Source: an uncultured SAR116 cluster alpha proteobacterium
GTDB taxonomy: Bacteria > Pseudomonadota > Alphaproteobacteria > Puniceispirillales > Marisalimonadaceae
Direction of reading: 5' to 3'
Assembly (NCBI GenBank): GCA_902625215.1
Contig: CACOAO010000017.1
Location: 1-36,689 of the forward strand
Length of the DNA: 36,689 nucleotides
The notes under the pieces are model-generated. The model made no database searches and was not told the DNA's origin. It saw nothing but the letters and a program-made list of their open reading frames with translations. The position numbers and the translations under genes were made by a program. Within the stretch, counting starts at the first letter, position 1, and each line of letters begins with the position of its first letter. Shown piece after piece: positions 5,280 through 36,300 of this stretch.

Positions 5280-6452
5280 TTGGATACAGATAAAAGAAAT
5301 ATTTTAGTTCTTTCTGTCGCGCAAGGCTTATCTATAACTACCACTAATATTAATATGATTAATACTGGTTTAGTTGGGGCAATATTAGCAAAAGATCCAT
5401 CTTATGCCACACTTCCATTATCACTTCAATTTTTGACTATAGCAATAACTCTAATACCTGTTTCACTGTTAATGGGCAAAATAGGAAGAAGACCAATGTT
5501 TTTAGTAGGAGCAATGGCCGCCTTTGCAGGATGCTTAATAATAGCTTTTTCAATTTTTAATAAAGTCTTTTCTTTATTTATAATTGGGTCAATTTTATTA
5601 GGTTTTTCTCAAGCAAATCAACAATTTTATCGATATGCTGCAGCTGACAACATAACTACAAAACTAAAAAGTAAAGCTATATCCTTAGTTTTAGCAGGTG
5701 GACTAATCGCTGCTCTAGTAGGGCCAGAAATTTCTAGATACTCTTTTGATTTTTTCCCAGATTATATTTATTTAGCAACTTATTTATTTGCTGCTCTTAT
5801 ACAAATTTTTAATTTTGGAATATTAATGTTTTTAAAAATAAAAAAACCAAAGCCATTAAAAGTATTAATTAGGCCATTGAGTAAAATTTTAATACGTAAA
5901 ACTGTCATTGTAGCAATTTTAGCTGCTTCAGTTGGATATTCTTTAATGAGTTTTATTATGACTGCTACTCCTTTGCAGATTGTAAATGTCTGTAAATTAG
6001 GAGATAGCGCAAGTGCAACTGTAATTCAATGGCATGTCATTGCTATGTTTGCACCATCTTTTTTTACTGGATCAGTTATAAATTTTTTAGGCAATCGTAA
6101 AGTTATGATTATTGGTGTGATATTATACATAATATCCATTTGTGTAGGTGTGATGGGTAAAACAATTGAATACTTCTGGATATCGTTATTTTTGTGTGGT
6201 TTAGGTTGGAATTTTCTTTATGTAGGTGGAAGTGACATAATTGCTAAATCTTCTTTACCTGAAGAAAGAGCAAAAGTTCAAGGTGTTACAGACTTTATTA
6301 TTTTTATATTTGTTGCATCCGGATCTTTTTTAGCGGGTATTCTGCATAATAATCTAGGATGGGAAATAATGATGTTTTACACATCAATACCCATATTTAT
6401 TTTGTTTTTAAGTATAGTGTTTATTAATACCAGAGAAATGAGGACAATTTAA
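5280..6452 (+). CDS. Major facilitator superfamily transporter
   Basis: A 390-aa inner-membrane transporter with about 12 hydrophobic helices. The loop 2-3 motif LLMGKIGRRPMFLVGA (about residues 64-79) matches MFS motif A. The frame is closed by a stop directly before the TTG at 5280. The next in-frame ATG would remove most of helix 1, so the TTG is the likely start, although no strong ribosome binding site is seen. The gene stands alone, divergent from the P1 hydrolase and convergent with moaA. The substrate cannot be read from the sequence; overall it looks like a drug- or metabolite-efflux type. Confidence 0.8.
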   Translation: MDTDKRNILVLSVAQGLSITTTNINMINTGLVGAILAKDPSYATLPLSLQFLTIAITLIPVSLLMGKIGRRPMFLVGAMAAFAGCLIIAFSIFNKVFSLFIIGSILLGFSQANQQFYRYAAADNITTKLKSKAISLVLAGGLIAALVGPEISRYSFDFFPDYIYLATYLFAALIQIFNFGILMFLKIKKPKPLKVLIRPLSKILIRKTVIVAILAASVGYSLMSFIMTATPLQIVNVCKLGDSASATVIQWHVIAMFAPSFFTGSVINFLGNRKVMIIGVILYIISICVGVMGKTIEYFWISLFLCGLGWNFLYVGGSDIIAKSSLPEERAKVQGVTDFIIFIFVASGSFLAGILHNNLGWEIMMFYTSIPIFILFLSIVFINTREMRTI

Positions 6453-6457
6453 GAGAC

Positions 6458-7474
6458 TTATCCACCGGTCAAGGACATATGTCTGTTTATTGATACATTT
6501 CGGGACTGACGTGAAATTTCAAAATCATGTCCCTTTGGTTTTTTTCCAATTGCTTTTCTAATAGCATCTTCCAGTGCATTTAAACCTTGTTCTCTTAATA
6601 CAGTTTTTAAATCAACATTATCATCTTGACCTAAACACATATAAAGGACACCGGTACTTGTAAGCCTAACTCTATTACAACTTTCACAAAAGTTATGAGT
6701 TAAAGGTGTAATAAAACCTAGTTTGTTTTTAGTTTCCTTTACAGAAACGTATCTCGCAGGACCGCTTGTTCTTTCTGGGAGATCCTTAAGAGTAAATTTT
6801 TTTTCAAGATCTTTTCTTACTTCAGACACAGGTAAATATTGTCCATATCTTTTATCTCCGCCTATATCACCCATTGGCATAACTTCAATTATAGTCATGT
6901 CAAAACTTTCTTCTCCGCACCATGCCAATATTTCTGCTAAATGATTTTGATTGAAATTACTTATAGCTACTGTATTGATTTTTACTTTTAGGCCAACTTC
7001 GCTAGCCCTTTTCAGACCTCGTTTGACTTTTTCTAGGTCTCCCCATCTAGTTATTTCTCTAAACTTATCAGGGTCAAGGTGATCTAATGATACGTTAATT
7101 CTTCTAACACCTGCTTTGTATAATTCTTCAGCCTTGAATTCTAGTTGACTACCATTTGTAGTAATTGTTAATTCATCAAGAGAATTTCCTACTTCTTCTC
7201 CTAAATTATTTATAACTTGCATTATTCCTTTTCTTACAAGAGGCTCACCACCAGTTAATCTAATTTTTCTCGTTCCGAGTTTTATAAAAATCCTACAGAT
7301 ATCCTCAATTTCCTCTAGGCTTAAGATATTTTTTTTTGGGAGAAATTGCATATCTTCTGCCATACAGTAAGTGCATCTAAAATCACATCTGTCAGTTACA
7401 GAAACTCTTAAGTAGTCTACAGTTCTTCCAAAAGGGTCGACCAACTTATTTGTATTTTTAATTATTTCATTCAT
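6458..7474 (-). CDS. moaA: GTP 3',8-cyclase (molybdenum cofactor synthesis)
   Basis: A radical SAM enzyme that carries out the first step of molybdopterin synthesis, acting with MoaC on GTP. The N-terminal cluster motif is C30-x3-C34-x2-C37 (CDFRCTYC), followed by the SAM-binding GGEP (75-78). The second [4Fe-4S] site is C263-x2-C266-x13-C280. The protein ends in the conserved Gly-Gly tail (MSLTGG) that inserts into the active site. I chose the ATG at 7474 ([10 protein letters not shown], 338 aa) because the 22-residue upstream extension is hydrophobic, unconserved and begins within AT-rich spacer. The product is needed by the Mo enzymes CoxL and SoxC further along the window. Confidence 0.95.
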
Positions 7475-10221: not shown

Positions 10222-10306
10222 GGGGATATGGTGAAATAGGTAAACACGCTGGTCTCAAAAACCAGTGCCGAAAGGCTTCCCGGTTCGATTCCGGGTATCC
10301 CTACCA
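10222..10306 (+). tRNA. tRNA-Leu (anticodon CAA)
   Basis: An 85-nt class II tRNA read by eye. The acceptor stem GGGGATA pairs with TATCCCT (first pair G-U), followed by discriminator A and an encoded CCA. The anticodon stem CTGGT/ACCAG encloses loop CTCAAAA with anticodon CAA at positions 34-36, reading UUG leucine codons. A long variable arm (GCC-GAAA-GGC) marks it as leucine or serine type, and the T arm CCCGG-TTCGATT-CCGGG is perfect. The 202 bp after it, up to the glutamate synthase gene, hold no gene or clear terminator that I can see. Confidence 0.95.
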
Positions 10307-10508: not shown

Positions 10509-13500
10509 ATGAATAAAAAAAAGCAATCAGAGCTATTATATGACCACAATATTGAAAAAAGCAGTTGTGGTGTCGGTTTTATTACTAAAAAAGATAGTAA
10601 ACAAACTCATGATTTATTAATAAAGGCTCATGAAGCTCTATGCTCAGTTCCCCACCGTGGTGGAATGTCTTCTGAGGGAATTGGAGATGGTGCAGGAATA
10701 TCAATTGATTTATCAGTAGATTTTTTTTCAAAAATTACAAACAAAACCTTAAAATTTGGAGAATTTATAGTTGGCAATTTTTTTATGCCAAAAAATACAG
10801 CTAACAAAGTAATCGCTAATAACTTAATTATTAAAACTTTAGAAAATAGTGGCTTTACACTTATTAAATCAAGAGACGTGCCTGTAAATAAATCAGTTTT
10901 AAATAAAATATCTAAATCATCTCAACTATTAATAAAGCAATTTATTTTTAGTATTCAAAACATTAATGATAAGAATATAGATAAAGCTATATACCAATGT
11001 CTACTAGACATTGAAGCAGTAGCATTTAATGATAAGAAGTTAGATGAGTTGTATCCTCTTTCCTTATCTAGAAAACTACAGGTATTAAAAGGTAGGTTAA
11101 AGTCAAATGAGATTATACCTTATTTTAAAGATTTAAATAACAAATCTCATAAGATTTTTTCTTTATATTTTCACACTAGGTTTTCAACAAACACTGAACC
11201 TCATCCGTTTATGGCACAACCTTTTAGATTGATAGCGCATAACGGAGAATTAAATACAAATAAAAAAAATATTCTATCAGAAAACGCAGCATATAAATCT
11301 AAGAATAAAAATATTATAAGACCAAAGGGTCAATCTGATAGTTGTAGATTGGATCAAACCTTACAAAATAGAATTTTTGAAGATGGATTAGACATAGTTT
11401 CTGCTGTAATTTCTATGATGCCACCGGCGTGGGAGAACGACAAAAGTTTATCTGAAGAGATTATAGCAATGTTTGAATATTTTTCATTATTTGAAGAAAA
11501 AAATGACGGTCCAGCTGCTGTTATATTTGGAGACGGAAATGTTATTGGTGCTAGACTTGATAGACTAGGTCTTAGACCGTTGAGAACAATTGAAACTGTT
11601 GATTATTTAGCAGCTATGTCAGAAGCAGGACAAATAAGTTTCCCAGAAGAAGAAATTATTTCAAGGGGAAGAATAGAGGCAGGGGGTATATTATTCTATA
11701 ACCATAAAGAGAAAAAAACATATAATACAGAAGATGCATTAAAACTTCTATCTTCTAAGACTAATTACAAAAAACTTTTACAAGAGTGCAGCATTAAGCT
11801 TCACCAAATTGAACAATTTAATGAAAGTAAAAATTCAATAGAAAATATAGATAATTTATCAGCTAAATACGTTGCTTATCATCACAATCAAGAAACCTTC
11901 AGATTTTTCTTGGATCCGATGCTTGAAACTGGAGCGGAAAAAGTTTCTGCGATGGGTTATGGTAATGCAATTAATGCATTGTCTGATCAAGAAGGTGGTA
12001 TGGCTAAATATTTTTCACAAAAGTTTGCACAAGTAACTAATCCACCTCTTGACTCAATCAGAGAAGCGGATGGAATGACACTTAGGGTATCACTAGGTTC
12101 TAAAACCAAAAATTTAAATAAGAAGTTTCCACAAATCATAATAGATTCTCCTATTTTAAAGCTTGACGATTTAAATAAAATTAAAAACCAGAATTATACT
12201 CCAATTAAAAATTTTGAAATTTTGTATGAACCAGATCATAAAAACGCTCAAAAAAATGAACGAATTTTAAAAGATCAAATTGAAAAAATTTGTTTAAATA
12301 TATGTGAGTTTGCATCATCTAGTGGAGGAATAATTATAATTTCAGATGCCAATGTTGATTCAAAAAAGGCAGTAATACCATTAATTCTTATAGTTTCAGC
12401 CATAAATCAATGTCTTATTAATGAGGGTTTACGTTTTAATGTTTCAATTATAGTTGAAAGTGGTCAGATTTGTTCTTCGCATCATATAGCATGCACACTA
12501 GGTTTCGGAGCTGCCGCTGTTTACCCATTATGTGTTGAAATGAGAATAAAAGAAAAATACTCATTAAATGAAACTTCAGCTTACAACAAGTTTATTAAAG
12601 CTTCTGAAAAATCACTTATGAAAATTATGGGTAAGGTAGGACTATGCACTGTAGAAAGTTACTCAGGTGGTGAATTTTTTGAGCCTAATTATTTAGATAC
12701 ATCAGATCCCTCATTAAAAAAATATTTTCCTAACATGTTTTCTCCTGTTGGGGGTGTAAGATTTAAAACTATCGCCCAAAGTTCTCTTGATTGGCACTTA
12801 AGATCTAACATTGTAAATAATGAAAAAGACATTCCTATCCTTGGACTTTTTAAGGAGCGTTCGGAAGGTGCAGGTCATTCTTATGGTATAACAGCTGTAA
12901 GAGAGTTTGTTGACTTAACAGAAGAAAAGATTTCTTTTAAAAAACTAAGTGATTCAGAAGATATTAAAAGATTAAGTTTTTTCACTATTAATCAAATGGA
13001 GGACGCATATGGTATTAGTGACGCAGGTTACAAAAACACAAGTTTTGATTCATTAAGTGATAAACAGATTGATGAATTTAAAATCACTCCCGGTTACTTT
13101 AATTTTATAAAATTAGTTGGAAAAGAAAGATTAGTTAGACCAGCTGCGTTAAGAGATGTGCTTGACTTTCCTCTAAATTTTGAAAGCACAATTGATACAA
13201 ATGATTTTACTAGTGAACTATTAAAATTAGATTATGTTGGTAACCATAATTTTTTAATAAAGGGATTAATAGTAAATAAAGTTCATAGAAACATCTACAG
13301 TGTTACATTTAGTAACAAGGAAAATATCAATATCAAAATTAAAAACTTTTCAATTTCTCTTCAAAAAGTTTTTAAAGAGAATGTTTCTGAAATGTTGATT
13401 AAAAACCAACATTTACAATTTAGAGCCAGAAGTAAAGCTGACAATTTTTTCTCAAATTTTAAAACAGCACCTAATTCAATTGAATTAAGTCAAGTTCAGC

Positions 13501-15929
13501 CTGCTTCAGAGATTACAAAAACTTTTGCTTCAGGTGCTATGAGTCATGGTGCGTTAGTTTCAAATGCTCACGAAGCAGTAGCTCATGGTACTAATATGGT
13601 AGGAGCGCTCTCAAACTCTGGTGAAGGTGGAGAGCATATGTCAAGATATGGTACCATTCGTGCATCCAAAATTAAACAATTTGCATCTGGTCGTTTTGGT
13701 GTTTGGGCAGGATATCTTGCTGATCCAATGTTAGAACAAGTTGAAATAAAGATAGGACAAGGGGCAAAGCCTGGAGAAGGTGGACAGTTACCTGCATCTA
13801 AAGTGTCAGTTGAAATAGCTGCTGCCAGAGGAGGTGTTCCTGGCGTTGAGTTGGTTTCTCCACCTCCCCATCATGATACTTACTCAATTGAAGATTTAGC
13901 TCAACTAATACACGATGCAAAAGCAGCTAGGGTAAAGGTTATTGTAAAGCTTGTATCATCTGATGGTATAGGTACCATTGCCGTTGGTGTTGCCAAAGCT
14001 GGAGCTGATGTAATAAATATAGCAGGTGGTACTGGGGGCACTGGTGCGGCAGCTGTAACATCACTAAAATATACGGGAAGATCAGCTGAAATTGGATTAG
14101 CTGAAGTTAACCAAGCCCTAAGTATTAATAAAATAAGACAAAAAGTAATCTTACGTTGCTCTGGAGCACATCAAACCGGTACTGACGTCGTTAAATCAGC
14201 TATATTGGGCGCCGATAGTTTTGAGTTTGGAACGTCGGCAATGATGATGCTGAAATGTGTCATGGCCAAAAATTGTAACATTAAATGTCCAGCTGGCTTA
14301 ACAACAAATTCGGAGTTATTTGACGGTGATCCAAGAGCACTAGCCCAATATTTTTTAAATATCGCACATGAGGTAAGAGAAATTTTAGCTAATATTGGCT
14401 TTAAATCTATTAAAGATATTAGAGGGCGTACTGATTTATTACATTTAATTAATCATAAATCTTCTGTTGGACAACTTAACCTTAAAATGATGTTGAAGCA
14501 GGTAGATAATCTTAAAATTTTGAATCCAATCTATCTTGAAAAAAACTATGACCATGACCAAAATCTATACAATTGGTTCTTAGAAAAATTTAATTTTTCA
14601 AAAGACGACACAATGTCAGCAAAAAAAATTACTCTAAATAATCGAAATAAAACGTTTGGTGGACAACTTTCAATTGATATTGAAAGGTATTTAAATTATG
14701 AACCCAAAATCAGTAAATTAGGGCAATCTCGTTTTTTTACTCTTCCTTCTGGGAGAAAGTGTTTAAAACCCAAATCACTTTTCATAAATACAGATGGTTC
14801 TGCTGGCCAATCATATGCAGCTTTTTGTAATGATGGTATGGTATTCAAACATATTGGGACATGTAATGATGGAGTAGGTAAATCTTGCTCTGGTGGAGAA
14901 ATAATTATCAAATCTCTAATAAATAATAATAAAAATATAATTCAAAATGTTTTGATAGGTAATTTTGCCTTGTTTGGTGCAACAGGAGGAAAATTATTTG
15001 TCGAAGGTCAAGCAGGTGACAGATTTGCAGTTAGAAATTCAGGTGCGACAGCTGTTATTGAAGGAGTAGGAGATTACTGTGGAGAATATATGACCAATGG
15101 AACTATTTTAAACCTTGGTTCTTTTTCAAGAGGTTATGGAAATGGAATGTCTGGAGGATTTTTATATCAATATGACCCATATAAAAAATTAAGTAATTTT
15201 ATTAGTACAGAGTCTGTTTTCATTGGAGAATTGTCTGAAAATACAGAAATTTCAAAAATACATGCACATACCATACAAAATTTACTGAAATGGCACCTTG
15301 ACGCGACAGGATCTAAGAAAGCCAAATATATCTTAGATAATTGGAGTATAGAAAAAAATAATTTTTCTTTTGTAACTCCGAAATCTCTATTACAGTATCA
15401 AGATTACGAAGAAATTTTAAAATCCAAAACTAGAAAAGAATTATTAGAAGAATTATCTTCTTACTTGGTCAAATTTCAAATACAGAAATTAAAAAAAATA
15501 TGGAAAGATGGCAAACATGTTTTAGACGGCCATGTTCCTAATGTTGATGAGACAGACAAAAGAAAAACTCATGAACTCCTAAATAATTGGAAGATATATG
15601 AAACAGCAAAAACTCTTATTGTTCCAGGTAGCTCAAAAACAATTAGAGACTTAATCTTAACTGAAGACTTTAATCTTATATCTAAACTATTGAAGTTTTC
15701 AAAAGATGCTATATCTAAATATAATGATGAAGAATTGTCAGTATTAATATCTAATAAAAGAATTGATGATTATAAATCAGCCTTAAGATTACGAAATGTC
15801 ATTTCAATTGATAGTCCAAGTACTTATGGTTGGTTAATTTATCAGCAAAATAAAAACAGTAAAATTATTTACAATATGCCTTCTTATGAAGAATTGTTCT
15901 TTGAACAATCACTCCATAGTTTTGTCTGA
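10509..15929 (+). CDS. gltB: Long, divergent glutamate synthase large subunit
   Basis: A 1806-aa GOGAT large chain; typical GltB is about 1500 aa. Domains in order: class II glutamine amidotransferase with the nucleophile Cys20 (SSCGVGF, so a 19-residue propeptide is removed) and RFSTNTEP / AHNGELNT; a central domain (FAQVTNPPLDSIRE); the FMN/synthase barrel from about residue 1005 (SGEGGEHMSRYG, GQGAKPGEGGQLPASKVS, PPPHHDTYSIEDL, GGTGGTGAA); [3Fe-4S] cysteines 1250, 1256 and 1260; and a C-terminal GXGXG beta-helix to about 1620. A further 180 residues of Lys/Leu-rich sequence have no counterpart in ordinary GltB. Several normally invariant stretches differ (GRSAEIGLAE instead of the usual LPWELGLAE). 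No gltD follows; a CysJ-like flavoprotein does. Glutamate synthesis from glutamine and 2-oxoglutarate is the likely reaction. Confidence 0.88.
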   Translation: MNKKKQSELLYDHNIEKSSCGVGFITKKDSKQTHDLLIKAHEALCSVPHRGGMSSEGIGDGAGISIDLSVDFFSKITNKTLKFGEFIVGNFFMPKNTANKVIANNLIIKTLENSGFTLIKSRDVPVNKSVLNKISKSSQLLIKQFIFSIQNINDKNIDKAIYQCLLDIEAVAFNDKKLDELYPLSLSRKLQVLKGRLKSNEIIPYFKDLNNKSHKIFSLYFHTRFSTNTEPHPFMAQPFRLIAHNGELNTNKKNILSENAAYKSKNKNIIRPKGQSDSCRLDQTLQNRIFEDGLDIVSAVISMMPPAWENDKSLSEEIIAMFEYFSLFEEKNDGPAAVIFGDGNVIGARLDRLGLRPLRTIETVDYLAAMSEAGQISFPEEEIISRGRIEAGGILFYNHKEKKTYNTEDALKLLSSKTNYKKLLQECSIKLHQIEQFNESKNSIENIDNLSAKYVAYHHNQETFRFFLDPMLETGAEKVSAMGYGNAINALSDQEGGMAKYFSQKFAQVTNPPLDSIREADGMTLRVSLGSKTKNLNKKFPQIIIDSPILKLDDLNKIKNQNYTPIKNFEILYEPDHKNAQKNERILKDQIEKICLNICEFASSSGGIIIISDANVDSKKAVIPLILIVSAINQCLINEGLRFNVSIIVESGQICSSHHIACTLGFGAAAVYPLCVEMRIKEKYSLNETSAYNKFIKASEKSLMKIMGKVGLCTVESYSGGEFFEPNYLDTSDPSLKKYFPNMFSPVGGVRFKTIAQSSLDWHLRSNIVNNEKDIPILGLFKERSEGAGHSYGITAVREFVDLTEEKISFKKLSDSEDIKRLSFFTINQMEDAYGISDAGYKNTSFDSLSDKQIDEFKITPGYFNFIKLVGKERLVRPAALRDVLDFPLNFESTIDTNDFTSELLKLDYVGNHNFLIKGLIVNKVHRNIYSVTFSNKENINIKIKNFSISLQKVFKENVSEMLIKNQHLQFRARSKADNFFSNFKTAPNSIELSQVQPASEITKTFASGAMSHGALVSNAHEAVAHGTNMVGALSNSGEGGEHMSRYGTIRASKIKQFASGRFGVWAGYLADPMLEQVEIKIGQGAKPGEGGQLPASKVSVEIAAARGGVPGVELVSPPPHHDTYSIEDLAQLIHDAKAARVKVIVKLVSSDGIGTIAVGVAKAGADVINIAGGTGGTGAAAVTSLKYTGRSAEIGLAEVNQALSINKIRQKVILRCSGAHQTGTDVVKSAILGADSFEFGTSAMMMLKCVMAKNCNIKCPAGLTTNSELFDGDPRALAQYFLNIAHEVREILANIGFKSIKDIRGRTDLLHLINHKSSVGQLNLKMMLKQVDNLKILNPIYLEKNYDHDQNLYNWFLEKFNFSKDDTMSAKKITLNNRNKTFGGQLSIDIERYLNYEPKISKLGQSRFFTLPSGRKCLKPKSLFINTDGSAGQSYAAFCNDGMVFKHIGTCNDGVGKSCSGGEIIIKSLINNNKNIIQNVLIGNFALFGATGGKLFVEGQAGDRFAVRNSGATAVIEGVGDYCGEYMTNGTILNLGSFSRGYGNGMSGGFLYQYDPYKKLSNFISTESVFIGELSENTEISKIHAHTIQNLLKWHLDATGSKKAKYILDNWSIEKNNFSFVTPKSLLQYQDYEEILKSKTRKELLEELSSYLVKFQIQKLKKIWKDGKHVLDGHVPNVDETDKRKTHELLNNWKIYETAKTLIVPGSSKTIRDLILTEDFNLISKLLKFSKDAISKYNDEELSVLISNKRIDDYKSALRLRNVISIDSPSTYGWLIYQQNKNSKIIYNMPSYEELFFEQSLHSFV

Positions 15930-15952
15930 AATATAAAATTGAGATTGATAAA

Positions 15953-17701
15953 ATGAATAATTATAAGAAAATTGAAACTGGTGAAGACATAAAACCTTTT
16001 AGTTTTGACCAAGAAGCTTGGATTTCAGGTTTTATTGCTGGCATGAAACAATCTGCCTCCTTATCTAATAATAGTTTAATTCAAGAACATAACAAAAATC
16101 TTATAAATTTAGATATTTTATTTGGTACACAAACTGGTAATTCAGAAGCTATAGCTGAAGATATGTCTAAAATTGCTAATGAAGCTGGGTTTAGAGCAAA
16201 AGTTAATTCTTTAGACAATATAACAATGGATATTTTAGGTAACATGGAAAATGTTGCCATTATTACTTCCACTTATGGAGAAGGTGAAATGCCTGATAAC
16301 GCCCAACTATTTTGGGATGCTTTATCAGCTAATACAGCCCCTAATTTAAGTAATATTAAATATTCTGTGCTAGCTCTTGGTGATACAGGATATGAAGAAT
16401 TTTGTCATGCTGGGAAACTTATTGATACTAGGTTTGAACAACTCGGGGCTACTCGAATTCAAGAGCGTGTTGACTGTGACGTTGATTATGAAGAATCATC
16501 TGAAAAATGGACTTCATCATTGATTGCCAAATGGAAACCAGAGGTTGAAGTTATAAAAGAAAAATCAAATGATCAATCCAATTTAAAAGAATACAATAGA
16601 AAGAACCCATATAGTGCAAAACTTTTATCGAATAAAATGCTTTCCGGCGTTAATTCAAATAAAGAGATTATGCATTATGAGATTGATTTAGGAGATAGTG
16701 GTTTAAAATACGAAGTTGGTGACTCATTGAGTATCTTCCCAACAAACAAAGAAGATCTTGTAAAGAAAATCATTGATCGATTAGGTGTTGAATTTGACTT
16801 TGTGCCGGTAGGTTATGAAAATGACATTAAAACGTTACTAACTGAAAAGTTTGAAATACTTACTCCTACAAAGAGGTTGATAGAATATATTGCAAAAAAC
16901 ACAAGTGATAAAAAACTAAAGTCAATTATCGATCATAATAATAATAAAGAACTTGAAAACTACAAATGGGGTATGGATGTTTTAGATTTCATGAATATTA
17001 ATCCCAACTTCAAAATTGATATTACAGATTTTCTTGGCCTTTTAAAATCTTTACAACACAGAACTTATTCAATTTCATCAAGTATAAATAAAGTTAAAAA
17101 TGAAGTTCATTTAACTGTATCATCTGTGCGATGGAAAAGAGATACTAGAAATTACAATGGTGTTTGTTCTACTTTTCTTGCTGATGACTGTACCCCTGGT
17201 GATAATATAAAAGTTTTCTTTACACCAAACAAATCATTCAGGTTACCAGATGACAATAAAGATATAATAATGATTGGCCCAGGTACAGGTATTGCTCCTT
17301 TCAGAGCTTTTTTACAAGAAAGGGAATATAGAAATAGTTCAGGCAAGAACTGGTTATTTTTTGGAGATCAAACAAAAAATGATGACTTCATTTATAAAAA
17401 TGAGCTTGAAGATTTCATTTCCTCTGGGGTTTTAAATAAATTAGATCTAGCTTTTTCTAGAGATCAAAAAAATAAAATTTATGTTCAGAATGTAATGTAC
17501 GAAAATAAAAAAGAATTTTACAATTGGTTAGAATCAGGCGCTTATTTGTATATTTGTGGAGACGCTAATCGTATGGCTAAAGATGTTGAGGATATGATAA
17601 TTAAAATAATTATGGAATGTTCTAATATTTCTTTTGATGCGGCATTTGAATACTTGAATAATTTAAAAAGAGAAAAAAGATATCTTAGGGATGTTTATTA
17701 A
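15953..17701 (+). CDS. CysJ-like NADPH diflavin reductase
   Basis: A 582-aa cytoplasmic electron-transfer flavoprotein. Domains: an N-terminal extension with WISGFIAGM; an FMN flavodoxin domain (53-195) with FGTQTGNSEAIAED and TSTYGEGEMPDN; an FAD domain with RTYSISSS (370-377) and GVCST (403-407); an NADPH domain with GPGTGIAPFRAF (442-453) and FSRDQKNKIYVQ (501-512); and the C-terminal KRYLRDVY tail typical of sulfite reductase flavoprotein alpha. In CysJ this passes NADPH electrons through FAD and FMN to the hemoprotein CysI. No CysI, nitrite or nitrate reductase lies nearby. Instead it begins 23 bp after gltB on the same strand, so it may feed glutamate synthase. The family call is firm; the partner is inference. 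Confidence 0.88.
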   Translation: MNNYKKIETGEDIKPFSFDQEAWISGFIAGMKQSASLSNNSLIQEHNKNLINLDILFGTQTGNSEAIAEDMSKIANEAGFRAKVNSLDNITMDILGNMENVAIITSTYGEGEMPDNAQLFWDALSANTAPNLSNIKYSVLALGDTGYEEFCHAGKLIDTRFEQLGATRIQERVDCDVDYEESSEKWTSSLIAKWKPEVEVIKEKSNDQSNLKEYNRKNPYSAKLLSNKMLSGVNSNKEIMHYEIDLGDSGLKYEVGDSLSIFPTNKEDLVKKIIDRLGVEFDFVPVGYENDIKTLLTEKFEILTPTKRLIEYIAKNTSDKKLKSIIDHNNNKELENYKWGMDVLDFMNINPNFKIDITDFLGLLKSLQHRTYSISSSINKVKNEVHLTVSSVRWKRDTRNYNGVCSTFLADDCTPGDNIKVFFTPNKSFRLPDDNKDIIMIGPGTGIAPFRAFLQEREYRNSSGKNWLFFGDQTKNDDFIYKNELEDFISSGVLNKLDLAFSRDQKNKIYVQNVMYENKKEFYNWLESGAYLYICGDANRMAKDVEDMIIKIIMECSNISFDAAFEYLNNLKREKRYLRDVY

Positions 17702-17763: not shown

Positions 17764-18660
17764 ATGAAATGGGATAGACTTAAATTATTCAACATTGTTG
17801 CACAAACATGCAACATCACTCACGCCTCAGAAATTCTAAACCAAAGCCAATCTTCACTTAGTAGACAAATGAAATCTTTGGAACATGAAATTGGATCTAA
17901 ACTTTTTTTGAGAAAATCTAATGGTATTTATTTAACAAATGAAGGTAAATCTCTGTTCTCTCATGTTTCAAATTTGGCTGAAACTATTGAGGAGATTCAT
18001 AATAAAATCAGAAATCATGATGATGTGCCAGCAGGAAAATTAAGGGTGTCAGCAACAAATGCTTTTGGATCACTTTGGGTTGCGCCAAATATGATTAAAT
18101 TCAATGAACAATATCCAAATATTGAAGTTGCCTTGAATTTAAGAGATTCCGAACCAAAAGTGGTACATATAGAGTCAGATGTCGAAATTAGAATGACACC
18201 AAGTTCCTCTCAAGATGATATTCAAATTAATTTAGCAAAATGCAGATATAAAATTTATGCATCTAGACAGTATCTCAAAAAGAATAAAGTCCCATATAAT
18301 ATTCAAGAACTGGACGATCATCGTATCATTTCCTATGGTGAGACAGCACAACCGCCTCTTGATAGAAATAGATTAAATTGGCTATTATTCATTGGTAGAG
18401 ATGATAAAAAACCTAGAAAGTCAGTATTAGAAGTATCAAGTATTTCTGGTATTGCCAAGGCTGCTGAAATAGGAATGGGTATTGCTTCTTTACCAGATTG
18501 GATGGAGTTTGATATGAATTCACTTACTGAAATTTTACCCGAATTAAGGGGGCCTGAATTAAATATTTCTCTATCATTTAAAGATCAATTAAAAAATGAT
18601 CCTAGGGTAAAGGCTTTTAAGGAATTTTTAGTATCTGAAATAAAAAAGTCATTTCCATAA
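17764..18660 (+). CDS. LysR-family transcriptional regulator
   Basis: A 298-aa regulator. The N-terminal winged helix-turn-helix is clear (ITHASEILNQSQSSLSRQMK, about residues 18-37, then LEHEIGSKLFLR), followed by the coiled linker helix and a periplasmic-binding-protein-like effector domain with SISGIAKAAEIGMGIASLPDW near residues 221-241. The gene lies between the gltB-reductase pair and hmuTUV on the same strand, with a Fur box directly in front and a 41-bp gap to hmuT. That places it most simply as the first gene of an iron-controlled operon. It could alternatively respond to an amino acid and act on gltB; the sequence does not decide. Confidence 0.88.
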   Translation: MKWDRLKLFNIVAQTCNITHASEILNQSQSSLSRQMKSLEHEIGSKLFLRKSNGIYLTNEGKSLFSHVSNLAETIEEIHNKIRNHDDVPAGKLRVSATNAFGSLWVAPNMIKFNEQYPNIEVALNLRDSEPKVVHIESDVEIRMTPSSSQDDIQINLAKCRYKIYASRQYLKKNKVPYNIQELDDHRIISYGETAQPPLDRNRLNWLLFIGRDDKKPRKSVLEVSSISGIAKAAEIGMGIASLPDWMEFDMNSLTEILPELRGPELNISLSFKDQLKNDPRVKAFKEFLVSEIKKSFP

Positions 18661-18701: not shown

Positions 18702-19547
18702 ATGCGAATAATTTATTTAATTCTATTATTGTCAATATCCAATGCTTATGCGATTTGTGAGCAATCAATGTCTAGATCCAAGATTGTTGTAGCTGGAGGA
18801 TCAATTACTGAAATCGTCTATTTTTTAGGTATGGAAGATAAATTAGTTGGCGTTGATATTACCTCAAATTTTCCTAAAGAGGCAAAAAAGTTAAAATCAA
18901 TAGGTTATTTAAGAAATTTATCAATAGAAGGTATATTATCTTTAAGTCCAGGATTAGTTTTAGCTGAAGAAGATATAGGTCCCCCTATAATTGTAAACCA
19001 ATTAAGAAAAACATCTATAGATTTGAGAATTATAAAAGAAAAAAATAATTTAAATGGTATCCATAACAAAATTGTGTGTATTTCCAAGATTTTAAATACA
19101 TCCTTAGAAGACAATAAAGATTATGTTGAATTACAAAAAAAATTATATCGGGTTAGAAACTTAAAAAAAATTAATAGTAAAAAAATAAAAAAAATACTCC
19201 TTATCCTAATGATGAGGGGTTCATCACCTGTGGTTGCAGGAAAGAATACTTCTGGTCAAGGTTTCATTGAAATGATAGGACATGAGAATTCTATGAAAAA
19301 TTTAAATGGTTGGAAACCAGTTAGTTCTGAAGAAATAATAAAGAAAAATCCTGATTATATAATTATAACGAAAAGGGCTTTTAAAAGTTTTTCGTCATTA
19401 GATCAATTTTTGAGTATTCCTGGAATATCTTCTACTCTAGCAGCTAAAAAAAAGAATATAATTGTCAAAGATGGAATGTCTATGTTGGGTTTTGGACCAA
19501 GAACAATAAATGTTGCTTTAGATATAGATAAAAAAATTGGGGACTAA
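18702..19547 (+). CDS. hmuT: Heme ABC transporter, periplasmic heme-binding protein
   Basis: A 281-aa periplasmic binding protein that delivers heme to the HmuUV importer. A short signal peptide (residues 1-17, cleaved after AYA) is followed by the family start KIVVAGGSITEIVYFLGMEDKLVGVDITSNFP, then GYLRNLSIEGILSLSPGLVLAEEDIGPP and GKNTSGQGFIEMIG, all typical of HmuT/BhuT. The order T-U-V is the usual heme-import layout. The 3' end overlaps hmuU by 11 bp. Heme rather than siderophore specificity rests on these motifs; no TonB receptor or HmuS is in the window to confirm it. Confidence 0.87.
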   Translation: MRIIYLILLLSISNAYAICEQSMSRSKIVVAGGSITEIVYFLGMEDKLVGVDITSNFPKEAKKLKSIGYLRNLSIEGILSLSPGLVLAEEDIGPPIIVNQLRKTSIDLRIIKEKNNLNGIHNKIVCISKILNTSLEDNKDYVELQKKLYRVRNLKKINSKKIKKILLILMMRGSSPVVAGKNTSGQGFIEMIGHENSMKNLNGWKPVSSEEIIKKNPDYIIITKRAFKSFSSLDQFLSIPGISSTLAAKKKNIIVKDGMSMLGFGPRTINVALDIDKKIGD

Positions 19548-20580
19548 TATAGTTAAAGTCGGTAAAAATTTTTTCAGATATATAAATAATATACAATTAA
19601 AATTAATATTAGTACTTATAGTATTCACATTAATATGCATGACACTTGGATTTTTTTTTGGAAGCTTTGACATTTCAATTAAAAAATTCATTCATGGGAA
19701 TCTAAGTCAATTAGAAAAAGAAATTCTTTATCAAATCAGAATACCAAGAGTATTATTAAGTGCTTTTGTTGGTGCAGCTCTCGGTTTAGCAGGTGCCTGT
19801 TTGCAAGGTTTGTTTAGAAACCCTCTTGCAGATCCTGGGTTAATAGGGGTTTCGGCTGGTGCTGCTTTAGGTGCCGTGTTGAGTATTGTTGTTTTTTCAA
19901 ATTTGTTAGAGCATCACTTTTTAGGAATATATTTATTACCTATTTCATCTGTAACTGGAGCATTAGTTGTAATTTTAATTTTGTATTATCTCAGTAAAGG
20001 ATTTATCTATGACGGAGTTACTTACATGCTGCTAATAGGAATAGCTATAAATGCTTTGGCAAGTGTTGGAATAGGCATACTAACTTTTGTTAGTGACGAT
20101 GCTCAGCTAAGGGGTTTAACTTTTTGGATGATGGGAAGTTTTGCTAATGCTCAGTGGAACCTAGTAATACCTACCATTTTTTTAATATTCATATCAATTA
20201 TTTGGATTATACCTCAATCTAGAAAAATTGACATCATTCAAATTGGAGAGCTTGAAGCATCAAGACTAGGAATAAATGTAATTAAGTTGAAATTTGTTGT
20301 CATAATGTCATCAGCAATAATGGTTGGAGTTAGTGTTTCCATTTCTGGTATGATAGGTTTTATTGGTTTGGTTATTCCACATCTAGTTAGATTAATTGGA
20401 GGTGTTAATCATAATTATTTATTGATTGGTTCGGCCTTTTTAGGATCTAGTCTTTTAGTTTTATCAGACATTCTTTCAAGAATTACAATTCAACCAGCTG
20501 AATTGCCTGTAGGCCTTGTAACTAGTGCTATTGGAGCTCCTTTTTTTCTGTGGTTAGTTTTAAGGATTAAAAAATCATGA
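19537..20580 (+). CDS. hmuU: Heme ABC transporter permease (FecCD family)
   Basis: A 347-aa inner-membrane permease with about ten hydrophobic helices. FecCD family marks include RIPRVLLSAFVGAALGLAGACLQGLFRNPLADPGLIGVS (residues about 68-106, split here for reading), the cytoplasmic coupling region GELEASRLGI (about 237-246) and GMIGFIGLVIPHLVRLIGG (about 270-288). It starts at a TTG inside the end of hmuT; no upstream ATG fits, and the ribosome binding site is weak, consistent with translational coupling. Its stop overlaps hmuV as ATGA. Function is heme or iron-complex import with HmuT and HmuV. Confidence 0.9.
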   Translation: MGTNIVKVGKNFFRYINNIQLKLILVLIVFTLICMTLGFFFGSFDISIKKFIHGNLSQLEKEILYQIRIPRVLLSAFVGAALGLAGACLQGLFRNPLADPGLIGVSAGAALGAVLSIVVFSNLLEHHFLGIYLLPISSVTGALVVILILYYLSKGFIYDGVTYMLLIGIAINALASVGIGILTFVSDDAQLRGLTFWMMGSFANAQWNLVIPTIFLIFISIIWIIPQSRKIDIIQIGELEASRLGINVIKLKFVVIMSSAIMVGVSVSISGMIGFIGLVIPHLVRLIGGVNHNYLLIGSAFLGSSLLVLSDILSRITIQPAELPVGLVTSAIGAPFFLWLVLRIKKS

Positions 20581-21338
20581 GTATAGAAATCAAGGATGTA
20601 AGATACATGGTAAATGACACTTGTCTTTTAGACAAAATTACATTTGATATTAATCCTGGTGAAATAACTACAATATTAGGTCCCAATGGAGCAGGCAAAT
20701 CAACTCTAATTAAATTGATATCAGGTGATATGAAGCCGTCTTCTGGAGAAATATTATATGATAAAATCCTATTAAACAAACTTACATTAGAAAATAAATC
20801 TCATAGAAGAAGTGTTTTGTCCCAATCACAGAATATTAACTTTGACTTTACGGTTAGAGATATTGTTGAAATGGGATGGATTAATGATTTTAATAATAAT
20901 TTTGAAAAAATACTAAATGAAGTTTCAAAAGAGTGTTCTATAGTTGATATTATTGAAAGAAAATTTAGGTATCTATCCGGGGGGGAGCAAAAAAGGGTAC
21001 ACTTAGCAAGAACACTTTTGCATATTAAGAGCATAGAAAATATATATGAAAACAAATATATTCTATTAGATGAGCCTTTAGCGAACTTAGATATTTTCTA
21101 CGAATTTAAATTAATAAAAATTATTAGAAAATTAGCAAAAAATGGATTAGGAATACTTATGATTTTGCATGATATAAACTTAGCTTATAAATTTTCAAAC
21201 AAAATAGCTCTAATGTTAGATGGTAAAGTAAAATACTTTGGAAATCCTGAAAAGGTTATAAATCAAAAGAATTTAGAAAAAATTTATGGTTTAAAAATGA
21301 AAATTTTTACTAAGCCCTTTTTTATAAAATATTATTAA
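20577..21338 (+). CDS. hmuV: Heme ABC transporter ATP-binding protein
   Basis: The 253-aa ATPase of the heme importer. Walker A GPNGAGKST (35-43), the Q-loop (SQSQNINFDFTV, about 82-93), signature LSGGEQKR (133-140), Walker B ILLDEP (162-167) and the switch His198 (LHDINLA) are all present. The start overlaps the hmuU stop by 4 bp (ATGA), so stoichiometric translation is expected. Length is normal for HmuV. Confidence 0.9.
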   Translation: MSIEIKDVRYMVNDTCLLDKITFDINPGEITTILGPNGAGKSTLIKLISGDMKPSSGEILYDKILLNKLTLENKSHRRSVLSQSQNINFDFTVRDIVEMGWINDFNNNFEKILNEVSKECSIVDIIERKFRYLSGGEQKRVHLARTLLHIKSIENIYENKYILLDEPLANLDIFYEFKLIKIIRKLAKNGLGILMILHDINLAYKFSNKIALMLDGKVKYFGNPEKVINQKNLEKIYGLKMKIFTKPFFIKYY

Positions 21339-22196: not shown

Positions 22197-22234
22197 AGTT
22201 TAGAATGATTTTAAAGTTAATCGGGGAGATATTG

Positions 22235-23089
22235 ATGATACCAAGCGCTTTCACATTTTATAAACCGGATAGTATTGAAAAAGCAGTTTCTATTATGAAG
22301 GATTTTGGAGACGAGGCAAGAGTCATAGCTGGAGGCCATAGTTTAATTCCAGTTATGAAGCAAAGACTTACTGATATAAAGCATTTAATAGACTTGTCTG
22401 CCATAGAAGAACTTAAAGGTATTAATATTAGTGGTAAATCTATAACGATTGGCGCAATGACAACTCAAGTTGAATTAATTACTAACGAAAACCTATTTAA
22501 AACTGCACCTGTTATAAGAGAAGCTTCACTACAAATTGCGGACCCACAAGTAAGAAATCTTGGAACAATTGGTGGTAATGTAGCAAATGGTGATCCTGCA
22601 AATGACATGCCTGGCTTAATGCAACTCTTAGATGCAACTTACAAATTAAGTGGTACTAATGGCTTGCGAGAAGTTAAGGCAAGAGAATTTTACGATGGTG
22701 CTTATTTTACTGCTAGAGAGGATGATGAAATATTAATTTCAATCTCTTTTGACGCTCCAATAGGTGGTTATGCGTATGAAAAACAAAAAAGGAAAATTGG
22801 TGATTATGCAACTGCTGCTGCTGGAGTGATTTTGAATGTTGACAATGGCGTTTGTTCAAGCGCTTCTATTGCGTTAACCAACTTATCTGATACACCTGTT
22901 TACTGTGATGAAGCAGTAAGTATGCTTACGGGTAAAAATATTGATGATAATTTATTAAGTCAAGCAACAAAGTCTTGTGTTGAACAAAGTGACCCTGTAG
23001 CTGATCAAAGAGGACCAGTTGAATTTAAAAAATATGTTGCAGGGATAGTAATAAATAAAGCTCTCAAAAGAGCTTTTGAACGTTCATAA
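22235..23089 (+). CDS. coxM: CO dehydrogenase medium (FAD) subunit
   Basis: The 284-aa flavoprotein subunit of aerobic CO dehydrogenase, which takes electrons from the CoxS iron-sulfur clusters and passes them to the quinone pool. FAD-binding motifs AGGHSLIPVMK (about 33-43) and TIGGNVANGDPANDMPG (about 111-127) match CoxM. The start at 22235 follows a strong GGGGAG site; an in-frame ATG at 22205 lacks one. It is the first gene of coxMSLDEFG, the order characteristic of form I operons. Confidence is high because all three structural subunits follow in order. Confidence 0.94.
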   Translation: MIPSAFTFYKPDSIEKAVSIMKDFGDEARVIAGGHSLIPVMKQRLTDIKHLIDLSAIEELKGINISGKSITIGAMTTQVELITNENLFKTAPVIREASLQIADPQVRNLGTIGGNVANGDPANDMPGLMQLLDATYKLSGTNGLREVKAREFYDGAYFTAREDDEILISISFDAPIGGYAYEKQKRKIGDYATAAAGVILNVDNGVCSSASIALTNLSDTPVYCDEAVSMLTGKNIDDNLLSQATKSCVEQSDPVADQRGPVEFKKYVAGIVINKALKRAFERS

Positions 23090-23101
23090 TAGGGGGAAAA
23101 C

Positions 23102-23605
23102 ATGGAAAAAATTAACGTCTCAATGAAGGTTAACGGCAAAGATGAAAATCTACACGTAGAACCAAGAACTCTATTAGTTCACGCTTTAAGAGAACATTTA
23201 GAATATACAGGTGCACACATAGGGTGTTCGTCTTCTCATTGTGGTGCCTGTACTGTAGATTTAAATGGAAAATCTGTTAAATCATGTACTATTTTTGCAC
23301 CTCAAGCCGAAGGGGCAGAAATTTTAACTGTTGAAGGTATTGGTACTCCAGATAAACTTCACGTAATTCAGGAAATGTTTAAAGAACATCATGGTCTTCA
23401 ATGTGGATATTGTACGCCAGGGATGATTATGAGATCTTACAGGTTTTTGCAAGAAAACCCTAATCCCACTGAAGAAGAGGTAAGATTTGGTATTTCAGGA
23501 AATTTATGTAGATGTACGGGATATCAAAATATTGTGAAATCAATAATGGCAGCTGCCAAAAAATTAAATGAAGAAGCTAACGTTGAGAAAAAGGAAATTG
23601 CATAA
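23102..23605 (+). CDS. coxS: CO dehydrogenase small (2x[2Fe-2S]) subunit
   Basis: The 167-aa iron-sulfur subunit. The N-terminal plant-ferredoxin cluster is bound by [12 protein letters not shown] plus the later SC in KSCTIF; the C-terminal cluster by QCGYCTPG and [11 protein letters not shown]. These carry electrons from the molybdenum site in CoxL to FAD in CoxM. It begins 12 bp after coxM behind a GGGGG site and overlaps coxL by one base (TAATG). Confidence 0.96.
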
Positions 23606-30444: not shown

Positions 30445-30493
30445 TATAATGTAATAAGTAATTATATATAATATAATTTTTTTGGAGATTTTG

Positions 30494-30955
30494 ATGAAAC
30501 GTCAAAAAATGATAACTATTTCAAGAAGAAATGCTATTTATTTGATGAGTGGTGTTGCTACTACTGTATTATTTTCAAAATATGCAATCGCAAAACCTAA
30601 TCTTGCTTTACAAAAAATTAAAGAAATAAGTAGGAACAGTGTTGAAGAAATTGACTTATTTTTAGATGTTCCAGAGATTGCTGAAAATGGAAACCAAGTT
30701 AAAGTAAGTTTTGATATTGAAAGTCCTATGACAGAGGATGATTTTGTGAAAACAGTATATTTGTTCGCAGATGGTAATCCAGCACCTAACGTAGCTAAGT
30801 TCTCTTTTAGTACTGATATGGGTGCTTGCGCTGCTACAACTAGAATGAGATTGTCAAAAACCCAAAACGTATATTTATTGGCAGAGTATAATAATGGAAA
30901 ATTTGCAATGACAAAATCAAAAGTAAAAGTAACAATTGGCGGTTGTGGCGGTTAA
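30494..30955 (+). CDS. soxY: SoxY sulfur carrier subunit
   Basis: The 153-aa periplasmic carrier that holds the sulfur substrate covalently on a C-terminal cysteine during thiosulfate oxidation. The protein ends in GGCGG with Cys151, the swinging-arm signature. A twin-arginine-like leader (SRRNAIYLMSGVATTVLF, about 10-27) would export the folded SoxYZ complex. The start at 30494 has GGAG 7 bases upstream; the frame extends 4 codons further without support. It is followed 15 bp later by soxZ. Confidence 0.95.
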   Translation: MKRQKMITISRRNAIYLMSGVATTVLFSKYAIAKPNLALQKIKEISRNSVEEIDLFLDVPEIAENGNQVKVSFDIESPMTEDDFVKTVYLFADGNPAPNVAKFSFSTDMGACAATTRMRLSKTQNVYLLAEYNNGKFAMTKSKVKVTIGGCGG

Positions 30956-30970
30956 AAGGGGAGATACGTT

Positions 30971-31297
30971 ATGTCTAAGATTAAACCAAGAGGGAAAGTT
31001 CCTAAAAAAGCGTCTGTTGATGAAATTATCGAAATAAAAACACTTATAAGGCATCCAATGCATAGTGGGCGTATGAAAGACAAAAATGGTAAAAATATTC
31101 CTAAAAGAATAATTAACAAATTTTTAGTTAAGTTTAATGGCAAACAAGTCTTTGGAATGGATCTAGAACCCTCCATATCAACAAATCCTTATATAGCTTT
31201 CCCTTTTAAGGCAAAAGAAACAGGAACTTTTGACTTTGAGTGGACTGACGATAATGGTGAAAAATATTCAATGTCTAGAAAAATGACTGTTTCTTAA
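30971..31297 (+). CDS. soxZ: SoxZ sulfur carrier partner subunit
   Basis: A 108-aa Ig-like beta protein that forms the SoxYZ heterodimer. Typical features are KTLIRHPMHSGRMKDKNGKNIP (about 19-39), the acidic start of the sandwich strands (MDLEPSISTNPYIAF) and GTFDFEWTDDNGE. It has no signal peptide, as expected because it is exported with SoxY through the Tat pathway. GGGGAG precedes the ATG. Confidence 0.94.
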   Translation: MSKIKPRGKVPKKASVDEIIEIKTLIRHPMHSGRMKDKNGKNIPKRIINKFLVKFNGKQVFGMDLEPSISTNPYIAFPFKAKETGTFDFEWTDDNGEKYSMSRKMTVS

Positions 31298-31313
31298 ACT
31301 ATTAGGTTTTGCT

Positions 31314-32591: not shown

Positions 32592-33219
32592 AAAATTATT
32601 AATATTTTTATTAATAGTATTTATTCCTAATTTACTCATTGCTAAGGAAAGAAAGTTTAATCTTGGTAAGATTGCAACTAAGACAGAAATCGCTGGTTGG
32701 GACATTGATGTAAGACCTGATGGATTAGGAGCACCCATAGGAAGTGGAAGCGCGATAATTGGTGAAGAAGTTTATGCTGAACAATGCGCTTCATGTCACG
32801 GAGATTTTGGAGAAGGACTTGATAGGTGGCCAGAATTAGTTGGTGGCGAGGATAGTCTAGATACTCATGATCCTGTTAAAACAACAGGAAGTTATTGGCC
32901 TTACGCATCGACTATGTATGATTATATCTATCGTGCAATGCCTTTTGGTGTGGCTCAGTCATTAACTCATGATGAAACATATCAAGTAGTCGCTTATCTC
33001 CTTTATATGAACGAAATTATCGAAGAAGATTTTGTTTTAAATGACAAAAATATTGGTAAAATCAAAATGCCAAATGTGGAAGGTTTTCTTATGCCTGATC
33101 CAAGACCAGATATTGCTAACATAAGCGGGAATCCGTGTATGAAAAATTGTAATTCTCCAACTAAAATAATTGGCAAAGCTCGCGATATTGACGTAACTCC
33201 AGAAGAAGAAAAATCCTAA
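32575..33219 (+). CDS. soxD: SoxD cytochrome c subunit, short monoheme form
   Basis: A 214-aa exported c-type cytochrome, partner of SoxC. The signal peptide covers residues 1-23 (cleaved after LIA). One heme site, C71-A-S-C74-H75, and a candidate Met ligand in RAMPFGVAQSL are present. The end carries the PDPRPDIANISGNPCMKNC segment that marks SoxD. The well-studied Paracoccus SoxD is longer and diheme; here the second heme domain is absent and the chain stops after an acidic tail. The ATG lies inside the 3' end of soxC. Confidence 0.9.
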   Translation: MFALVKKLLIFLLIVFIPNLLIAKERKFNLGKIATKTEIAGWDIDVRPDGLGAPIGSGSAIIGEEVYAEQCASCHGDFGEGLDRWPELVGGEDSLDTHDPVKTTGSYWPYASTMYDYIYRAMPFGVAQSLTHDETYQVVAYLLYMNEIIEEDFVLNDKNIGKIKMPNVEGFLMPDPRPDIANISGNPCMKNCNSPTKIIGKARDIDVTPEEEKS

Positions 33220-33234
33220 ACAAAAGGAAAAGTC

Positions 33235-34923: not shown

Positions 34924-34925
34924 GT

Positions 34926-34955
34926 CTAGAAGGCAATCGAGAGATTGCCTTCTAG
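34926..34955. terminator. Perfect hairpin between converging soxB and soxF
   Basis: A 13-bp perfect inverted repeat (CTAGAAGGCAATC / GATTGCCTTCTAG) closes on a GAGA tetraloop of the stable GNRA class. It fills the 40-bp gap between the two stop codons. There is no T-run on either side, so it may block read-through or protect both 3' ends rather than act as a classic intrinsic terminator. Confidence 0.65.
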
Positions 34956-34963
34956 TGATTCAA

Positions 34964-36229: not shown

Positions 36230-36300
36230 ATAATCCTCCTCCAAAAATTAATAATCTTTATAAATGTTAACGTTTTTTACTCTTAAGTAAAATTTTATTT

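Follow-up and report, generated by a model that had tools for sequence, protein, structure and literature searches.

A predicted glutamate synthase in which a CysJ-like diflavin reductase stands in for GltD

We report a gene pair that very probably encodes a glutamate synthase (GOGAT) dependent on reduced nicotinamide adenine dinucleotide phosphate (NADPH), in which a diflavin reductase takes the place of GltD. The pair lies in the window, by which we mean the whole of contig C17 (36,689 nucleotides) of a SAR116-cluster alphaproteobacterial genome (2.0 Mb in 66 contigs, 88.8% complete). It consists of gltB*, which encodes a divergent large subunit, and cysJ*, which begins after a gap of 23 bp and encodes a reductase that resembles CysJ of NADPH sulfite reductase. 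As judged from their sequences, both proteins are complete and their catalytic and cofactor motifs are conserved. The pair is the sole GOGAT found in some lineages and a second GOGAT in others, and the window's organism is among the latter. Many bacteria appear to use a GOGAT in which an iron-free flavin reductase replaces the iron-sulfur (Fe-S) partner, possibly saving iron.

A first-pass annotation of the window had described an intact GltB, with Cys20, a barrel for flavin mononucleotide (FMN) and three cluster cysteines, followed 23 bp later by a complete reductase. The coordinates and domains given there are correct, and the two genes are intact. Their parts are as follows (FAD is flavin adenine dinucleotide and AF2 is AlphaFold2):

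10509..15929, + strand: gltB*, large subunit of a divergent glutamate synthase, 1806 amino acids (NCBIfam PRK11750, 1043.9 bits, cut-off 1047)
10566..11774, + strand: class II glutamine amidotransferase domain, residues 20-422, nucleophile Cys20 (GATase_2, 3.5e-86)
11871..12683, + strand: central domain, residues 455-725 (Glu_syn_central, 3e-75)
12951..13463, + strand: GltB*-specific insert, about residues 815-985 (no counterpart in canonical GltB)
13377..14402, + strand: FMN/synthase barrel, Pfam match at residues 957-1298 (Glu_synthase, 2.8e-107)
14256..14288, + strand: cluster cysteines 1250, 1256 and 1260 (CX5CX3C; 74 of 74 full-length GltB*)
14751..15248, + strand: GXGXG beta-helix, residues 1415-1580 (7.2e-48)
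15396..15926, + strand: GltB*-specific helical C-terminal extension, about residues 1630-1806 (no counterpart in canonical GltB; helices in the AF2 model)
15953..17701, + strand: cysJ*, dedicated NADPH-FAD-FMN diflavin reductase, 582 amino acids (TIGR01931, 608.1, cut-off 668.15)
16115..16510, + strand: CysJ* flavodoxin (FMN) domain, residues 55-186 (Flavodoxin_1, 1.3e-34)
16595..17176, + strand: CysJ* FAD-binding domain, residues 215-408 (FAD_binding_1, 2e-31)
17270..17590, + strand: CysJ* NAD(P)-binding domain, residues 440-546 (NAD_binding_1, 7.1e-15)

GltB* has the complete domain order of a GltB (GATase_2, Glu_syn_central, Glu_synthase, GXGXG) and narrowly misses the curated PRK11750 cut-off. 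All 74 full-length GltB* proteins share the glutaminase-site residues Cys20, Arg224, Asn245, Gly246 and Asp277, as well as the three cluster cysteines. In all 74, the window's included, the cluster cysteines are spaced CX5CX3C, while alignments with 1llw, 1ea0 and 7mfm show that solved GltS proteins are spaced CX5CX4C, a pattern that GltB* does not have. Similarly, the canonical FMN-barrel motif DGG..TG is replaced by SGA..TG, with a variable first G in 7 of 74. The identity between GltB* and the canonical GltB of its own genome is 29-46%, in two blocks, and 26 GltB* proteins form one clade apart from 11 canonical GltB (Shimodaira-Hasegawa-like approximate likelihood ratio test, SH-aLRT, 100; rows hand-chosen). 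Two regions make GltB* longer than its canonical counterpart: about 170 amino acids inserted between the central domain and the FMN domain, and about 175 added at the C-terminus; neither has a Pfam match above the cut-off. An AF2 model of the insert (residues 815-994) has a predicted local distance difference test (pLDDT) score of 80.3 and no match in the PDB at E ≤ 0.001. For a model of residues 815-1806 (pLDDT 74.8), the seven best structural matches are GltS, followed by FMN barrels. The insert and the extension are candidate docking sites for CysJ*. The ferredoxin loop, which functions in the FMN domain of ferredoxin-dependent GOGAT, is absent from GltB*: the residues of 1llw between the matched stretches (914, 934) have no counterpart.

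CysJ* contains the Flavodoxin_1, FAD_binding_1 and NAD_binding_1 domains, in that order. Of 78 CysJ* proteins, 66 to 78, depending on the site, agree with simple patterns for the binding of FMN, FAD and NADPH, and every one of the 78 ends in DVY. CysJ* scores below the curated cut-offs of TIGR01931 and PRK10953 (483.4, cut-off 838). In a tree, five other CysJ-like proteins, among them the one beside cysI in Pantoea ananatis, fall outside CysJ*.

In the proposed enzyme, GltB* would lose a 19-residue propeptide and then hydrolyse glutamine at Cys20. The ammonia released would travel through a tunnel inside the protein to the FMN site, where it would meet 2-oxoglutarate. NADPH would reduce FAD and then FMN within CysJ*, whose flavodoxin domain would hand single electrons to the Fe-S cluster of GltB*, much as CysJ feeds CysI. 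The cluster would then reduce the FMN of GltB*, which would turn 2-iminoglutarate into glutamate. We infer every step past the domain assignments by analogy with the two parent families.

The two genes stand side by side in a wide range of bacteria. We scanned 84,980 species genomes with the cluster-cysteine segment, which gave 595 pattern matches, 553 of which encode a relative, and we kept the best 80. The carriers belong to the Alpha-, Beta- and Gammaproteobacteria, the Actinomycetota and the Verrucomicrobiota. In 79 of the 80 loci, a CysJ* match follows the GltB* match on the same strand; the remaining locus, L120, is cut off within gltB* by the end of its contig. Thus, the adjacency that the first-pass annotation had proposed to check is conserved in five bacterial groups. 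Pairwise distances among GltB* and among CysJ* proteins are strongly correlated (r = 0.948 across 73 loci; the maximum of 500 permutations was 0.19). Searching plasmids with tblastn, we also found nine listed records with full-length GltB* (51-58% identity) from Rhizobiaceae, Ketogulonicigenium and Tsukamurella, and the reductase gene is directly 3' of gltB* in all 5 plasmid loci that we examined. The distribution of the pair is patchy: of 385 genomes drawn evenly from the class, 3 have the GltB* C-terminus, the window's own among them. Within the window's genus, where many genomes are incomplete, full CysJ* is present in 4 of 37.

We then asked which genomes have other forms of these proteins. 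The first-pass annotation had stated that neither usual partner was present. This holds at the locus, which has CysJ* where gltD would be, and no NIR_SIR (CysI-type) protein was found in the window's genome at 88.8% completeness; it does not hold for gltD in the genome as a whole, as contig C1 carries an operon of canonical gltB (1545 amino acids) and gltD. We tested 52 carrier genomes, and in 20 of them canonical GltB was not seen among the matches listed. In 17 of these 20 there were just two matches, both of them GltB* itself, and the other three (G367, G462, G481) have weaker further matches. These GltB*-only genomes include Pantoea and Leucobacter isolates. A full-length match to GltD was found in none of the 20, but in each of the 5 control genomes, which have canonical GltB; in G367, a GltD-like match spans residues 26-313 at 30% identity. 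A NIR_SIR protein was not found in 9 of the 20. One of them, G164, is 99% complete, and neither a NIR_SIR protein nor an ELFV-type glutamate dehydrogenase was found in it, so that the pair is the only evident reductive route to glutamate there. We looked for the three observations that the first-pass annotation had named as contrary to its proposal (a CysI partner for the reductase, an adjacency that is not conserved, and a gltD that accompanies this GltB clade) and found none of them, which supports a GOGAT with a CysJ-like reductase in place of GltD.

Furthermore, sequence comparison indicates that the pair occupies the gltBD position of relatives in three lineages: Pantoea, the SAR92 clade, and one alphaproteobacterium. 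In 7 Pantoea loci (P. ananatis and six others), the pair is flanked by arcB and sspB, within the rapZ...degQ gene order. In E. coli K-12, the same order holds gltB-gltD, along with yhcC and about 15 kb of other genes between gltD and sspB. In ten loci of the SAR92, Porticoccaceae or Cellvibrionales type, the pair comes after aroK-aroB, immediately in eight and at a distance of about 2 kb in two, and hemE is the next gene after it. For comparison, a contig from Acinetobacter, filed as a phage, has the order aroK-aroB-x-gltB-gltD, and hemE is not next to it. (This record, CAKLQH020000003.1, is a bacterial chromosome with pil, aro and glt genes. Among 27 phage records with matches, the one that we examined, H22, is a bacterial contig.) In G164, the pair lies between uppP and the gene for a glutathione S-transferase, both named by eye, and its more distant neighbours correspond to those around canonical gltBD in the genome of the window (35-50% identity by BLAST).

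Genetic evidence comes from P. ananatis. According to the accessible part of one report (PMC12364357), strain AJ13355 lacks any close counterpart to the E. coli GOGAT, its only gltB is 64% identical to that of Agrobacterium (A. tumefaciens), and a knockout of gltB led to glutamate auxotrophy (citing Hara 2012); that part of the report names no partner subunit. In P. ananatis LMG 2665, GltB* is the only form among the matches listed, and it is 68% identical to a rhizobial GltB*. We infer from these similarities that the gene that was knocked out is gltB*, and the auxotrophy then supports GOGAT function for the pair.

Several points weigh against this interpretation. Canonical GltB is also present in 32 of the 52 carriers and in the window's organism, and 11 of the 20 GltB*-only genomes have a NIR_SIR protein. 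Completeness figures are at hand for 2 of those 20. The auxotrophy of P. ananatis is second-hand (Hara 2012 via the accessible part of PMC12364357), and its gene is equated with gltB* by similarity. The CX5CX3C spacing and the SGA..TG motif differ from those of canonical GltB, so the reaction may not be the same in detail, or even in substrate. In the AF2 model, part of the FMN barrel scores below a pLDDT of 50. In the tree of reductases, three CysJ-like proteins (L132, L133 and L136) fall within CysJ*, on long branches and with an unsure place. Finally, we found no enzyme assay, complex or cysJ* mutant in the literature.

Our data also link the pair to iron, which is reported here for the first time. 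According to the available text of a review (PMC8097209), canonical NADPH-GOGAT contains one [3Fe-4S] and two [4Fe-4S] clusters, and the latter are in GltD. As CysJ* should carry flavins alone, the pair would need 3 iron atoms per protomer, versus 11 for GltBD. In iron-limited Caulobacter, expression of canonical GOGAT falls 2.3- to 2.5-fold, as given in the accessible part of PMC3751524, so that a low-iron substitute would fill a real need.

In 26 of the 80 loci (L043, L044, L054, L055, L061 and L072 among them), cysJ* is directly followed by a HemS-like gene. Of 26 HemS-like proteins (24 from those loci and two from plasmid loci), 22 match PF05171 at E ≤ 0.01, and a profile of the family matches solved HemS-type proteins over about 300 positions. 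(This divergent HemS/ChuX-like family is the third gene of the operon; its role may be the breakdown of haem with reduction by CysJ*, or haem storage.) We compared the gltB* and canonical gltBD loci of a hand-chosen 20 of the 32 genomes that carry both GOGATs: 17 of 20 gltB* loci have HemS-like or FecCD/TonB genes in the same 20 kb (HemS-like in 15), and 0 of 20 canonical loci do. Moreover, the HemS-like gene is found in 17 of 32 double-GOGAT loci versus 0 of 20 GltB*-only loci, one of which (L053) has no downstream sequence. With kinship ignored, this association has p = 3.5e-5 by Fisher's test (4.2e-5 without L053), and across independent pairs the median p is 0.125. Methylopila jiangsuensis and Yoonia maritima are examples of species that carry both GOGATs together with the HemS-like gene.

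We also searched for binding sites of iron regulators with the IdeR, Fur and Irr consensus sequences. Of 10 actinobacterial loci, 7 (including four close relatives) carry IdeR-like boxes (at least 13 of 19 positions) ahead of gltB*, with 0.019 expected per stretch. Among 8 canonical loci, one (L165) has an IdeR-like site of at least 13/19, about 6.8 kb from gltB. Fur-like boxes (at least 14/19) precede 4 of the 27 gammaproteobacterial loci with upstream sequence (L085 left out); all four carriers are Vibrio or Psychromonas, two are one species, and L073 holds nine more such sites elsewhere. TGA-N9-TCA, which resembles the RirA box, occurs in 9 of 42 alphaproteobacterial promoters (shuffled mean 2.4, maximum 8), and the Irr-type core motif in none of these 42. 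In a motif scan, 13 of 79 upstream stretches score at p ≤ 0.02 for one of three iron motifs, with about 5 expected by chance. L050, a near-copy of the window, is not among the 13, and iron control thus finds no support in the promoter of the window itself.

Taken together, we put at roughly even the chance that the pair is an iron-sparing GOGAT: in double carriers, an isozyme for iron limitation, in some cases controlled by IdeR/DtxR or Fur and sharing an operon with the gene for a HemS-like haem protein, and elsewhere a lasting replacement of GltBD. As the window's organism also has canonical gltBD, the pair is probably an accessory, maybe iron-sparing, isozyme there. It is possible, if rather doubtful, that the pair in double carriers is instead a redundant copy that was acquired horizontally and plays no particular role, which would be compatible with glutamate synthase activity. 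The patchiness of the pair (the 4 of 37 genomes in the genus, one of them with gltB* in two frames) and its location on plasmids would fit this, but redundancy would not account for iron-related genes near 17 of 20 gltB* and none of 20 canonical loci in the same genomes, nor for the IdeR-like boxes in 7 of 10 actinobacterial promoters.

Another explanation, which we consider improbable, is that GltB* is a GOGAT fed by ferredoxin, flavodoxin or a distant GltD-like protein, and that CysJ* serves sulfite reductase or some other acceptor. CysJ* does pass the NCBIfam model PRK06214, "sulfite reductase subunit alpha" (433.7, cut-off 432), and four annotated plasmid records call the reductase cysJ or sulfite reductase alpha. 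However, the true CysJ of P. ananatis passes PRK06214 as well (438.5), so this model is not discriminating. In that genome, a separate cysJ is directly beside cysI (L130), so CysJ* is a second reductase there. The GltD-like match in G367 and the NIR_SIR proteins of the 11 GltB*-only genomes would suit another donor, but the adjacency in 79 of 80 loci, the lack of a ferredoxin loop, and the 9 GltB*-only genomes in which NIR_SIR was not found do not.

It is quite improbable that the pair acts on another 2-oxo acid as a reductive amidotransferase, or serves haem or iron metabolism, rather than glutamate synthesis. The changed motifs of the FMN barrel and the HemS-like gene directly 3' in 26 of 80 loci could be read in this way. 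On the other hand, the pair holds the gltBD slot in three lineages, GltB*-only genomes exist, the P. ananatis mutant is reported to be a glutamate auxotroph (in the accessible part of its source), and the HemS-like gene is in 0 of 20 GltB*-only loci, 19 of which have sequence at that position. Two simpler assignments were rejected: a ferredoxin-dependent GOGAT does not fit the missing loop, and a sulfite reductase does not agree with the separate cysJI of P. ananatis or with the search for NIR_SIR proteins, which found none in the window's genome (88.8% complete) and none in 9 of the 20 GltB*-only genomes.

We now turn to the surroundings of the pair. At this locus, the named genomes closest to the window belong to the SAR116 cluster (L050-L052; 94-96% identity over GltB*). 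The pair is followed by a regulator and by genes of a FecCD-type ATP-binding cassette (ABC) transporter:

17764..18660, + strand: LysR-type regulator (paralogue on contig C1, between a reductase stub and canonical gltB)
18702..19547, + strand: periplasmic binding protein of an iron/haem/B12-type ABC transporter (PF01497, 6.7e-24)
19537..20580, + strand: FecCD-type permease of the same iron/haem/B12-type transporter (PF01032, 9.7e-87)
20577..21338, + strand: ATPase of the same iron/haem/B12-type transporter (best NCBIfam match, haem ATPase PRK13548, 240.8 bits, below the cut-off of 261)

Relatives of the binding-protein and permease genes adjoin the pair in L050-L052 and L054, and the transporter genes (18702-21338) are probably part of the same iron-related cluster as the pair. 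On the 5' side, a tRNA-Leu (caa) at 10222-10306 ends about 200 bp before gltB*. By eye, this flank is unlike that in the other three members of the genus that carry the pair, which suggests an inserted block. A promoter scan of the window gave 50 sites, versus 45.8 in shuffled sequences, and no compelling inverted repeats were found upstream. Further downstream, the window encodes aerobic carbon monoxide dehydrogenase-type genes (22205-26028), whose large subunit passes TIGR02416 (1374.8 bits, cut-off 991.15), and a Sox/Fcc-like sulfur-oxidation cluster (30482-36621), as judged by eye from the translations.

The reductase stub on contig C1 (131.7-132.8 kb; 5694-6827 of locus L007) lies upstream of canonical gltBD. 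It has 377-379 amino acids, matches the FAD/NADPH half of CysJ* alone (57% identity) and has no flavodoxin domain. The LysR paralogue beside the stub on C1 is 65% identical to the window-type LysR copies in L047-L052. The 21 stubs of genus members form one clade, which groups with SAR116 CysJ* (SH-aLRT 99, in a quick tree of the FAD/NADPH half). Counting both whole and cut copies, this type is in 27 of the 37 genus genomes, and neither a stub nor full CysJ* was found in 24 other genomes of the order (many in both sets incomplete). The reading frame of the stub is open in many genomes of the genus, which makes a separate function for it probable.

As to the state of the pair in other genomes, gltB* is in more than one frame in L052 (G023, a SAR116 genome; near the start), in Shinella sp. 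UYSO24 (L104) and in Vibrio mexicanus (L119), which may reflect assembly errors or decay. In Psychromonas and Vibrio intestinalis (L141 and L146), canonical gltBD and gltB*-cysJ* are side by side.

GOGAT is a main gate for ammonium into amino acids. If our interpretation is correct, then genomes that have been read as lacking gltD and having a spare cysJ are mis-annotated; GOGAT chemistry can be separated from the [4Fe-4S] chain that is regarded as part of the bacterial enzyme; and nitrogen assimilation is tied to the supply of iron. In the full texts that we searched, which leave most subscription papers outside, we found no GltB-CysJ glutamate synthase, and an earlier mention is possible. 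The accessible parts of PMC10532344, PMC5764234 and PMC9045290 do not describe the pair, and the forms described in the available text of the 2021 review (PMC8097209) are the NADPH (GltD), ferredoxin and NADH forms and archaeal open reading frames.

Compared with known systems, the pair is most readily set beside the bacterial NADPH-GOGAT (GltB-GltD, EC 1.4.1.13), with which it shares the domain order, the N-terminal nucleophile cysteine, the FMN barrel, the three cluster cysteines and the GXGXG helix, and whose slot it takes in three lineages; it differs in having CysJ* for GltD (and hence no [4Fe-4S] clusters), in the insert and C-terminal extension, and in the CX5CX3C spacing. Like ferredoxin-dependent GOGAT, it has a large subunit without GltD that could accept single electrons from outside, but it has no ferredoxin loop and has its own NADPH reductase gene. 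CysJ* has the FMN-FAD-NADPH domain order of the CysJ of NADPH sulfite reductase, but it is paired with GltB* instead of CysI and scores below the TIGR01931 cut-off. The nearest proposal that we found is an F420H2-dependent GOGAT in methanogens, which, in the accessible part of PMC3448663, was inferred from gene context. There too, a glutamate synthase core would be combined with a different electron-input subunit, but that form is archaeal and would use an F420H2 dehydrogenase rather than a diflavin reductase.

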